DNA from: Ralstonia pickettii DTP0602
GTDB lineage: Bacteria > Pseudomonadota > Gammaproteobacteria > Burkholderiales > Burkholderiaceae
Direction: 5' to 3'
Assembly (NCBI GenBank): GCA_000471925.1
Contig: CP006668.1
Coordinates: forward strand, 1,922,001 to 1,986,000
DNA length: 64,000 nt
Part shown: positions 51,198 to 64,000 of the stretch, piece after piece
Numbering within the stretch: the first letter of the stretch is position 1
Layout of the letters: every line of letters begins with the position of its first letter
The notes under the pieces: model-generated
The model's database searches: none
Seen by the model: only the letters and a program-made list of their open reading frames with translations
Told to the model about the DNA's origin: nothing
Program-made: the position numbers and the translations under genes

Positions 51198-54100
51198 TCA
51201 GGCGGCCAAGGCCGCTTGCGGCGCCGCGCCGAGCGCGGTGAGTGCGCGCGCGTCGAGTTCGCCCGCGGTCTCGCTGTGTTCACGCACGGCCGCGGCCAGC
51301 GCGTGAGCGGTCGGGTGGTCGAACACCACGCCCGGCGCGATCTCCACCTGCAGGCGCCGGCGCAGCCGCGCCACCAGCTTGATCACCAGCAGCGAATGGC
51401 CGCCGAGCGCGAAGAAGTCGGCGTGCGGGTCGACCCGGTCCTGCTCCAGCAGTTCGGCCATCAGCACGCAGATCAGGGTCTCCACGGCGTCCGCGGATGC
51501 CGTGGCAGCTTGCGGCGCCGGTGCGGCAATGTCGTCCTGCGACGCGGCCAGCGCGCGCAGCGCCGTGCGGTCGGTCTTGCCGTTCGGCAGCCGCGGCAGC
51601 GCAGGCAGCGCGATAAAGCGCGACGGGACCATCGCGTCGGGCAGCATGGCGGCAAGCGCGCGCCGCAGCGCATCCGTGTCGGCGGCATCGGCCGATGCCG
51701 GCACGATGAACGCGCACAGGACGACTGCGCCGCCGGGGCCAGGCACCGCACAGACCGCAGCCTGCGCCACCGCCGGCTGCGCCAGCAGCGCGGCCTCGAC
51801 TTCCGCCGGCTCGACGCGGATGCCGCGGATCTTGACCTGCTGGTCGGCACGGCCCAGCAGTTGCAGGCCGGCGGGCGTGGCGCGCGCCAGGTCGCCGGTG
51901 CGGTAGAGGCGCTGCCCTGCCGCGAACGGGTCGTCGACAAACGCGGCGGTGTCCAGGTCCGGGCGGCCGAGGTAGCCATGCGCCAGTTGCGGACCGCCGA
52001 CGTAGAGCTGCCCGGCCACGCCGGCCGGGACCGGGCGCAAGGCATCGTCCAGCAGCCGCACGCGCGTCGCGCCCAGCGCCCGGCTGAGCGGCGCCGTGCC
52101 GGCGGGCCACGCGGGATCCTCCGCGCCGACGGCGTGGACCATCACGCCGATGGTGGTTTCGGTCGGGCCGTAGTGGTTGAAGATCCGGCAGGCCGGCGCC
52201 TGGCGGCGCAGCCCCTGCACCAGGCTGGCGGGCAAGGGCTCGCCGCCCAGGATCACCGTGGCGGGCACTGCCAGTGCATCCGTTTCCAGCAGCGCCGCCA
52301 GGTGCGACGGCACGATCTTGATGGTGTCGACGTCGCGCCCACGCAGGTAACGGGAGAAGGCGGCGGGATGCGCCATGTCGTCATCGCTGGCGACCGCCAG
52401 GCACGCGCCCTGCCACAGTGCGGCGAACAACGTGGTGTTGCCGAGGTCGGCCGCGACCGACGACGTCAGGCCGAGCCGCCGGCACGACGCCAGCGACAGC
52501 GCCTCGCACACCGCCGCGGTGTAGTGGCTGATCTGCCGGTGCCCGATCACCACGCCCTTGGGCTCGCCGGTGGAGCCGGAGGTGAAGAGCACGTAGGCGG
52601 CGTCTTCCGGGGAACTGGCGACCAATGCCTCGTCAGCGGCGTGGGCGCCCTCGGCCAGCAGGACTTCGGCGCTGATCACCGTCGCGTCATCGTCGGCAGC
52701 CTGCTGCGCGATGGTCAGCACCGGCGCCGACTGCGCCAGCACGCTGCAGCGGCGCGCCTGCGGCCATGCCGGGTCGAGCGGCACATAGGCGCCGCCCGCG
52801 GCCCATACCGCCAGCAGGCTCGCCACCAGCGCGCCGCTGCGCGGCAGCGCCAGCGCCACGCGTGTGCCGGGGCCGACGCCGAGCGCGCGCAGCCGTTGCG
52901 CGGCGGCTTGCACGGTGCGCTGCAGGCCCGCGTAGTCGAGCACCAGGTCCGCGGCATCGAGCGCGGGCGCATCCGGTGTCTGCCGGGCATGCTGCGCGAT
53001 GCGTGCGAGCAGGGGCTGCTCCGCATCCGCCGGCGTTTCGGCGCTCCAGCACTGCGGCACGCGCAAGGTATCGTCGGCAGGCCACGACAGCGATTCCAGC
53101 GGTGCGTCGAGCGCCGCAGGCAGTGTGCCGATCAGTGCCGCCAGATGCGCCAGCAACCACTGTGCAACGCGCGGATGCAGGACACCGGAGCGCGCATGCA
53201 GCGCGAGCGCCGCCATGCCCTGCCCGTCATCCAGCGCCTCGCACACCAGGTCGAAGCCCGGCCATGCCGGGCTGGACATCGCCACGCCGGCGGGCGGCAG
53301 CGGCGCTACCGCAAACCCGATACGGGGCGCGGCATCCCCGGGCTGCCAGGCTTCCTGCCACGCGGCGTGACTGTCGAGCCCGGGCAGCCATGCGCGCCAG
53401 TGCTCGGCCACGCTGCGCTGCGCGTCCCATGCCACGCCGACCGGAAGCGCCTTGACGAACACGCCAGCCGCATCGGCCATCACGTCATAGTCGCGGCGGC
53501 AATCATGCAGCCAGGCACCGCTGAAGGCCGTCTGCGCGCACAGGCGCGCCAGCACGGTCCACCAGGCGGCCTGCACCACGCGCTCGGGCGTGGTCCCGAA
53601 CTGTCGTGCCGACGCGGCCAGCGCCTGCCGGTGCGCGCCATGCAGCGTGTGGCGCGAGGTGTCGCTACCTTGCGCGGCGGCAGATCCGGCCAGCGCATCG
53701 GGGATGCGCAGCGGGGCCGGCAGGCCGGCGGCCTGCGCCTGCCAGTACGCGCGGCCGGCGCTGCCGGTGCCGTCTTCGCCCAGGCGCGCGCCTTGCTGCC
53801 AGTCGGCGTATTGCGCGTATTGCAGCGGCAATTCCTCATCGCTATCGATCCGAGCCGGCGCATCCAGTGCATCGCGCACGCTTTCGGCAAGCCTCAGCAC
53901 GGTGCTGCGGTCTGCCGCCAGCGGACTCGCCAGCAGCCACAGCGTGGTGCCGCCCGCGGGTAGCGGGCTGATGCAGGCGCGCAATACGTCGCCGCTCGCC
54001 GGATCGAGCGCGGGCAACGACGGCGCATCCCGGAGCTCAGCGATGGCCGTGGCGACACCGCCGGTGCCCGCCTGCGGCACGCAGGCCACGAGCTGCTTGC

Positions 54101-54299
54101 CATCGTCGATATACGCCGTACGCAGCGCTTCATGCCGCGCGCGCAGCGCGGCCAGCGCCGCATCCACGGCGGCAGAGTCAGGCTGGCTGTGCAGCGCGAT
54201 ACGCGCCACATGCGCGCGCGGCACCGGCGCGTCGCGCCATTGTTGCCAGGCAGCCTGCTGTTCAGGCGTCGGGGTCCAGGCGGACTGCAGTTCAGGCAT
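51198..54299 (-). CDS. NRPS: degenerate C-like domain-A(Asp)-PCP
   Basis: A 1033-residue synthetase. The N-terminal 430 residues have a condensation-domain fold pattern. Where the H-H-x3-D-G motif should be, near residue 124, they read A-S-P-L-A-A-D-R-S, so the domain cannot use standard catalysis. The adenylation domain (F-T-S-G-S-T-G-E-P-K-G near 571) has specificity residues D-L-T-K-I-G-H-I-G, the aspartate code. The carrier Ser is in L-G-G-H-S-L near 969. C-like interface domains are described in beta-hydroxyaspartate siderophore synthetases as partners of TauD-type hydroxylases. The start overlaps the preceding gene, which ends in a C domain and a hydroxylase, by eight bases; GGAG lies eight bases before the ATG. 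Confidence 0.92.
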   Translation of the reverse strand: MPELQSAWTPTPEQQAAWQQWRDAPVPRAHVARIALHSQPDSAAVDAALAALRARHEALRTAYIDDGKQLVACVPQAGTGGVATAIAELRDAPSLPALDPASGDVLRACISPLPAGGTTLWLLASPLAADRSTVLRLAESVRDALDAPARIDSDEELPLQYAQYADWQQGARLGEDGTGSAGRAYWQAQAAGLPAPLRIPDALAGSAAAQGSDTSRHTLHGAHRQALAASARQFGTTPERVVQAAWWTVLARLCAQTAFSGAWLHDCRRDYDVMADAAGVFVKALPVGVAWDAQRSVAEHWRAWLPGLDSHAAWQEAWQPGDAAPRIGFAVAPLPPAGVAMSSPAWPGFDLVCEALDDGQGMAALALHARSGVLHPRVAQWLLAHLAALIGTLPAALDAPLESLSWPADDTLRVPQCWSAETPADAEQPLLARIAQHARQTPDAPALDAADLVLDYAGLQRTVQAAAQRLRALGVGPGTRVALALPRSGALVASLLAVWAAGGAYVPLDPAWPQARRCSVLAQSAPVLTIAQQAADDDATVISAEVLLAEGAHAADEALVASSPEDAAYVLFTSGSTGEPKGVVIGHRQISHYTAAVCEALSLASCRRLGLTSSVAADLGNTTLFAALWQGACLAVASDDDMAHPAAFSRYLRGRDVDTIKIVPSHLAALLETDALAVPATVILGGEPLPASLVQGLRRQAPACRIFNHYGPTETTIGVMVHAVGAEDPAWPAGTAPLSRALGATRVRLLDDALRPVPAGVAGQLYVGGPQLAHGYLGRPDLDTAAFVDDPFAAGQRLYRTGDLARATPAGLQLLGRADQQVKIRGIRVEPAEVEAALLAQPAVAQAAVCAVPGPGGAVVLCAFIVPASADAADTDALRRALAAMLPDAMVPSRFIALPALPRLPNGKTDRTALRALAASQDDIAAPAPQAATASADAVETLICVLMAELLEQDRVDPHADFFALGGHSLLVIKLVARLRRRLQVEIAPGVVFDHPTAHALAAAVREHSETAGELDARALTALGAAPQAALAA

Positions 54300-63654: not shown

Positions 63655-63725
63655 GGCGAAAACGTTGGAGATGACAAAGCCCTGGCCCGCAGGAGCGGCC
63701 AGTGGGCGTCAGGACGGCGGCGGGA

Positions 63726-64000
63726 TCAGCCCAGGCCGGGCGGCGCGGGCTCGGCCATGGCGACAATCACGCGGCGCGGGCCGCTGAAGGTGCCGCGCCC
63801 ATGAGCGGCCAGCATGTTGTCGAGCATCAGCACGTCGCCCTGCTGCCAGGGAAAGCGCACGGTGCAGTCGTCGAGCGTGGCACGGATCGAAGCGAGGGCG
63901 TCGTCTTCCAGCGGCGCGCCGTCGCCGTAGACGACATTGCGCGGCAGTTCGTCGACGCTGCCGACCACGGCCAGCAAGGCCTCGCGCACGTGGGGCGCGA
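63726..64000 (-). CDS. TauD-family hydroxylase, C-terminal part (cut by window edge)
   Basis: Only the last 90 or so residues are inside the window; the frame stays open at base 64000. The visible part closely parallels the end of the fused TauD domain in the next gene: Q-Q-G-D-V-L-M-L-D-N-M-L-A-A-H-G-R, then S-G-P-R-R-V-I-V-A-M. The distal iron-ligand His and the oxoglutarate-binding Arg are both present. It is a stand-alone Fe(II)/2-oxoglutarate hydroxylase, probably acting on the carrier-bound aspartate of the following NRPS. It ends 71 bases before that NRPS starts. Confidence 0.88.
   Translation of the reverse strand, partial: APHVREALLAVVGSVDELPRNVVYGDGAPLEDDALASIRATLDDCTVRFPWQQGDVLMLDNMLAAHGRGTFSGPRRVIVAMAEPAPPGLG

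Follow-up and report, generated by a model that had tools for sequence, protein, structure and literature searches.

We examine here a nonribosomal peptide synthetase (NRPS) locus of Ralstonia pickettii DTP0602, lying in a window of 64,000 nucleotides (bases 1922001-1986000 of contig 2 in an 8.1-Mb, three-contig genome; positions below count from the window's first base). Its main element is a pair of aspartate modules, each associated with a TauD-type hydroxylase, one encoded by a free gene and the other fused to the end of a synthetase. We consider it likely that these genes make the known, light-sensitive lipopeptide siderophore cupriachelin, the free hydroxylase acting on the lipid-bearing first aspartate (Asp1) and the fused one on the second (Asp2) by way of a catalytically dead interface domain.

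The locus

The features on which the argument turns all lie on the minus strand (A, adenylation domain; C, condensation domain; T, carrier domain; C*, the atypical first condensation domain; Dab, 2,4-diaminobutyrate):

63726-64787, minus: free TauD-type hydroxylase gene, 353 aa (PF02668, E 1.1e-49), read from a longer genome stretch, since only 275 bases at its 3' end (63726..64000) fall within the window
54292..63654, minus: NRPS1, 3120 aa, C*-A(Asp)-T-T-C-A(Dab)-T-C-TauD, from domain models and A codes
62137..63408, minus: C*, starter-type condensation domain with HHVAGDY (motif at 63001-63021, residues 212-218 of NRPS1)
60880..62043, minus: adenylation domain 1 (Asp), code DLTKVGHVG, from its signature
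60112..60543, minus: tandem carriers of the first Asp module (60346-60543 and 60112-60309), from domain models
58711..59970, minus: condensation domain of the Dab module, HHLIVDGW, from domain model and motif
57394..58581, minus: adenylation domain 2 (Dab), code DIWELTADD, from its signature
55474..56787, minus: condensation domain before the tethered hydroxylase, HHLVSDGW (56368-56391), from domain model and motif
54355..55299, minus: tethered TauD-type hydroxylase domain at the C-terminal end of NRPS1, from a domain model
51198..54299, minus: NRPS2, interface-A(Asp)-T, within a 1065-aa open reading frame (ORF) opening at 54395
53088..54269, minus: interface domain in which HHxxxDG is replaced by ASPLAADRS (53904-53930), from its motif
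51843..52991, minus: adenylation domain 3 (Asp), code DLTKIGHIG, from its signature

The start of NRPS2 is probably at 54299, 32 codons inside the longer reading frame, because each of its two nearest database relatives has a length of 1033 aa. An earlier note on this DNA, made from the letters and their reading frames, had reported two A domains with the code DLTK-GH-G, a free TauD followed by a HHVAGDY domain before the first, and a C domain, a TauD fused to the end of the upstream protein and an ASPLAADRS domain before the second; all of this was read here as described. The tandem carriers of the first Asp module are an addition to it.

Two further genomes of the same genus show this entire layout (loci L103/L104 and L105/L106; L numbers denote loci and G numbers genomes of our surveys), which is therefore not a product of chance. 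Concerning which genus that is, the free TauD matches a C. necator protein at 96% identity across 89% of its length, a C. necator record with no strain specified shares 93% identity with NRPS2, and the organisms named in NRPS2 records of at least 78% identity are all Cupriavidus, besides one compost metagenome. Judged by these matches, the genus of the genes is Cupriavidus.

The probable product

The remaining genes of the locus include the other two synthetases and genes for transport, ferric reduction and hydroxamate formation:

45134..51283, minus: NRPS3, C-A(Orn, DGEGSGGVT)-T-E-C, with a final C domain at 45179-46474 (a start further inside, at 51160, is possible); its epimerisation (E) domain was separated from the C type by motif and TIGR01720
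44282..45121, plus: gene for a FhuF-like ferric reductase, separating NRPS3 from NRPS4
40889..44185, minus: NRPS4, C-A(Gly, DILQLGVVW)-T, from domain models and signature
39210..40892, minus: ABC exporter
38080..39213, minus: GNAT acyltransferase (PF13523), likely for N-hydroxyornithine acylation
36657..38057, minus: ornithine N-monooxygenase (PF13434)
34266..36548, minus: TonB-dependent receptor
65131-68315, beyond the window end, divergent: stand-alone thioesterase, phosphopantetheinyl transferase and class-III aminotransferase genes

Five modules are thus spread over four synthetases in the window and its flank. By the usual code tables, we take the A codes to specify Asp, Dab, Asp, an Orn derivative and Gly. 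Neither the synthetases nor the free TauD received a specific name from NCBIfam.

The cupriachelins of C. necator contain beta-hydroxyaspartate twice, in the L-threo and L-erythro forms, besides L-Dab, D-Orn, Gly and hydroxybutyrate; a carboxylate is also present, and the fatty tail adjoins the first hydroxyaspartate (PMC10484230). The module codes (Asp/Dab/Asp/Orn plus E/Gly), together with the Orn N-monooxygenase, the GNAT acyltransferase and the class-III aminotransferase, which probably supplies Dab, match these residues, and the reported D-Orn agrees with the presence of an E domain in the Orn module. The masses agree as well: the residue sum for the fragment without acyl-hydroxyaspartate (y4) is 523.2358, equal to a published cupriachelin ion, decanoyl-Gly is calculated at 212.1645, again a published ion, and the calculated MH+ values of 808.39 (C10) and 780.36 (C8) stand beside published values of 808 and 780. 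The ions compared are literature values for C. necator. Two hydroxyaspartates in the product, made by one free and one tethered hydroxylase as the earlier note had foreseen, are very likely, given both the sequence and what has been published on cupriachelin and potashchelin.

The tethered hydroxylase and its interface domain

In a tree of 68 of 97 rows, from which the second TauD of L024, a long branch, and some ordinary free rows were set aside, the fused TauD domains of the window and 13 other loci group in a single clade (bootstrap 100, SH-aLRT 100). A C domain with HHxxxDG precedes the fused TauD at 15 of 15 loci (the 14 clade loci and G403, with Cupriavidus LEh25 kept out of the count), and the domain after it has no His-His pair at 14 of the 15, L025 ending before the motif. 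In the tree of C domains, the NRPS2 domain belongs to an interface clade of 10 rows (support 100/100). It has the features of an IbH_Asp-type interface, namely no HHxxxDG and a position directly after a C-terminal TauD and before A(Asp), and its AlphaFold model has a C-domain fold at a moderate pLDDT (70.8). This logic is published (Reitz 2019, cited in PMC12230676; potashchelin, PMC7100376). On its motif and position, then, the ASPLAADRS domain is probably a docking piece for the fused hydroxylase that has lost its active-site pair, and the HHLVSDGW domain ahead of that hydroxylase is likely to join Dab to the second Asp.

A survey of the class for fused TauD found a match in 3 of 369 genomes, our own included. 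At L024:13223-16530 (Aquabacterium), a C-like domain reading DGLHGDAR comes after the long-branch second TauD, ahead of an A domain without an Asp code.

The first condensation domain

Named genomes were scanned with an alignment of the free TauD, and the best 80 of 566 loci were kept. At 27 of the 80, the free TauD is followed by a synthetase opening with an HH[I/V]-[A/S]-x-D-[F/Y/L/H] domain, the C* class; 25 of these have a readable Asp code, L047 has a cut A domain and L090 a Gly code. The C* synthetase comes directly after TauD at 19 of the 27 loci, and at the other eight another protein stands between. All eight intervening proteins have AMP-binding and phosphopantetheine carrier domains over the Pfam cut-offs and no condensation domain; all eight ligases have the motif GLDS close to their end, and the fatty-acyl-AMP ligase (FAAL) models of NCBIfam match them best among single-ligase families, below the curated cut-offs. 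Because C* is the sole condensation domain between acyl carrier and first residue at these eight loci, it is the likely lipid-attaching domain, and the HHVAGDY domain of NRPS1, by its kinship with them, is most likely a starter C domain.

The FAAL-acyl carrier protein (FAAL-ACP) proteins (L027, L036, L037, L045, L047, L054, L057 and L090) end in a tail that reads EGEI, EGVI, EGVL or EGTI and may serve in docking, and the protein of L090 also contains an acyl-CoA dehydrogenase domain. For NRPS1, a TubC-type N-terminal docking domain was considered and rejected, being absent from the Pfam results even at E 10.

A different reading, that which the earlier note extended to both hydroxylases, would make each atypical C domain a structural interface, one per hydroxylase, with the donor of the first module coming from a C domain elsewhere. 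Both domains do stand at the start of a protein beside a TauD and both deviate from HHxxxDG; moreover, an approximately unbiased (AU) test does not reject C* and interface domains as one clade (p 0.077). The docking idea stands for the tethered hydroxylase, whose neighbour is a dead domain. For the free one it is not supported: C* keeps His-His and Asp and, in the 21 of 29 C* domains that were aligned, an Asn that is invariant and an Arg that is nearly so, whereas the interface rows lose the His-His pair; it lies in another clade, and it has no fused TauD ahead of it. The C* clade has support 100/99 and holds none of the 10 rows without His-His. Twenty-three rows had been picked by the C* motif, of which 22 make up the clade and the look-alike, a second C domain at L094, falls outside; selection by motif makes the constant His-His and Asp a matter of construction, but not the clade. 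The first C-domain tree comprised 93 of 303 domains, with loci of the same stretches and part of Cupriavidus LEh25 left out, and the second comprised 50 of those 93.

The layout upstream of NRPS1 bears on the same reading. If C* were structural, as had been proposed for this first domain of the 3120-aa protein, the preceding protein should end in a real C domain. That does hold for modules of the interface type (15/15 loci, above), but what precedes NRPS1 is only the free TauD, followed by the divergent thioesterase, phosphopantetheinyl transferase and aminotransferase genes. The 34 kb beyond the free TauD contain two stand-alone AMP-ligase ORFs but none encoding a C or T domain, and all 27 C* loci lack a synthetase on the same strand upstream of TauD in the stretch fetched (up to 10 kb). 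The prediction of a real C domain upstream therefore fails. C* itself would occupy the lipid-attachment position, directly after FAAL-ACP at 8 of the 27 related loci.

One possible donor is present in the window. NRPS3 ends T-E-C, its final C domain being an orphan with no A domain after it, as also at L103 and L105. We considered NRPS3 feeding NRPS1 as a rescue of the upstream-C prediction and rejected it as the main reading, because the y4 ion puts acyl-hydroxyaspartate first and the FAAL-ACP C* loci need C* for acylation; Orn would otherwise precede Asp1. Overall, we regard two structural interfaces as highly unlikely.

Several observations weigh against a starter role for C*, or against the strength of the comparison. 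The loci were chosen by TauD similarity and many are near relatives, so the association of C* with TauD is biased, and the AU result leaves room for a single clade. C* also lacks the complete HHxxxDG: in place of the final Gly the class has Tyr, Phe, Leu or His, and work on the starter domain RzmA-Cs inferred that the acyl donor can enter only where this position, as with Gly, has no side chain (PMC7804268; PDB 7c1h-7c1u). In addition, the window's C*, although the first C domain, has no gene for an acyl donor beside it; no FAAL lies in its cluster, and the genome's two best FAAL-like genes are elsewhere. An acyl-CoA is a possible donor.

These last points could also mean that C* is a vestigial, inactive starter, with acylation taking place elsewhere or the product lacking a lipid. 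The bulky residue and the missing FAAL would suit this, but the C* model is confident (pLDDT 89.5) and has the fold of catalytic and starter C domains, with His-His and Asp kept. Furthermore, the published cupriachelins bear a fatty tail on the first hydroxyaspartate (PMC10484230), and formomarinobactin-type synthesis opens with an acyl-AMP ligase before Asp (PMC13037486). A vestigial C* is therefore extremely improbable in our estimate, and a working starter domain remains our preferred account. As such, a C* with a bulky residue where RzmA-Cs requires Gly would put the strictness of that rule to a direct test.

As to occurrence, a survey of the order with a C* profile gave a match in 40 of 399 genomes, our own included, a figure with little bearing on the spread of C*. 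Among 29 other loci of this survey, 17 have an ordinary HHxxxDG, L129 (Burkholderiales genome G521) has a C domain with HHIAGDFW, and the rest show another motif or no readable one. Among the papers listed by searches on interface and starter C domains and hydroxyaspartate siderophores, none has a title or abstract opening that describes the C* motif, with subscription papers thinly covered.

The free hydroxylase and the tandem carriers

The free TauD is a separate gene of the TauD family and lies outside the fused clade of 14 rows (100/100), as expected of a stand-alone Asp hydroxylase of the TbH_Asp type. The free hydroxylases of C* loci fall in one 31-row set, 28 of them C*-associated (99/98), while the other free hydroxylases from the TauD scan adjoin synthetases with ordinary C domains only. 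Two carriers stand behind C* in 21 of the 25 Asp modules and one in the other four (L025, L026, L030, L036), against none of 42 ordinary Asp modules with two carriers; a further five at a stretch end show none. The rows with tandem carriers are related, so this is a pattern rather than a test.

It is possible that C* or the tandem carriers recruit the free hydroxylase as a second role. An explicit form of this idea, in which a catalytic C* also docks the free hydroxylase, perhaps with the tandem carriers, draws on the shared 31-row set and on the carrier counts. Matching clades are nevertheless explained by shared inheritance, the choice of loci by TauD biases co-occurrence among related rows, four C* modules manage with a single carrier, and free hydroxylases elsewhere adjoin ordinary C domains; we rate such a dual role as unlikely. 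Equally tentative is the conjecture that HHxAxD[F/Y/L/H] marks a distinct starter subtype for acyl-beta-hydroxyaspartate siderophores, its bulky residue reshaping acyl binding and the active domain plus tandem carrier serving as the free hydroxylase's landing site. If this were true, C* with its tandem carrier would be the live counterpart of the dead interface domain within one assembly line.

Proposed assembly and stereochemistry

Read from domain order, signatures, motif loss and retention, clades, synteny and ion arithmetic, the catalytic steps would run as follows. The HHVAGDY domain would N-acylate Asp on the first, tandem-carrier module, and the free TauD would hydroxylate this carrier-bound residue before the chain moves to the Dab module. 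The C domain ahead of the fused TauD would then form the bond between Dab and the second Asp, bridging the two proteins, and the N-terminal interface domain of NRPS2 would keep the fused hydroxylase in place at the carrier of that second Asp. The peptide would be finished with Gly and with a hydroxyornithine that is N-acylated and epimerised.

The order of these last two residues may not follow gene order. NRPS4 opens with its own C domain, the opposite-strand FhuF gene divides it from NRPS3, and Pfam detects no thioesterase domain in the four synthetases. Published nuclear magnetic resonance (NMR) shifts are listed as hydroxyaspartate, Dab, hydroxyaspartate, Gly, Orn (PMC10484230); if this listing is the peptide order, it would fit a sequence NRPS1-NRPS2-NRPS4-NRPS3, with the final C domain of NRPS3 left for release.

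Regarding stereochemistry, a published rule assigns L-erythro products to stand-alone and L-threo products to fused hydroxylases (PMC7100376), by which residue 1 would be L-erythro and residue 3 L-threo. The prediction is weakened by a sentence in the introduction of the same paper that swaps the two assignments of its abstract, and by the statement that the TauD in VarG gives erythro (PMC10999976). According to PMC7100376 (2020), the positions of the two diastereomers in cupriachelin were not chemically determined; the layout at this locus predicts what that paper left open.

Comparison with known systems

The two-hydroxylase layout and the compound family are already known. Seven loci in other genomes of the same genus (L107-L113) share the order C-TauD, then interface-A(Asp)-T, with our locus, but theirs is preceded by a FAAL-ACP lipid start (FAAL-ACP-C-TauD) and there is no free hydroxylase within the 20-kb stretches. 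These hydroxyaspartate-type clusters, different from ours, are perhaps serobactin- or taiwachelin-like.

Starter domains offer a second comparison: RzmA-Cs has Gly at the motif position where C* has Tyr, Phe, Leu or His (PMC7804268). Marinobactin and formomarinobactin resemble the present system in their separate TauD gene and in a peptide opening Asp-Dab, but start from an acyl-AMP ligase domain, and the available text of PMC13037486 mentions no fused TauD. Potashchelin of Halomonas MG34 (PtcA and PtcB-PtcC; PMC7100376) likewise combines one stand-alone and one fused TauD, the latter in FAAL-ACP-C-TauD with C-A(Asp) after it; in that system residue 1 is hydroxylated by the fused enzyme and residue 6 by the free one, whereas here the free enzyme would serve residue 1. 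Cupriachelin itself, from Cupriavidus necator H16/B-4383 (Kreutzer 2012, cited by PMC10484230), agrees with our locus and its predicted product in genus, residue composition, two hydroxyaspartates, D-Orn with an E domain, a hydroxybutyryl hydroxamate and the ion masses.

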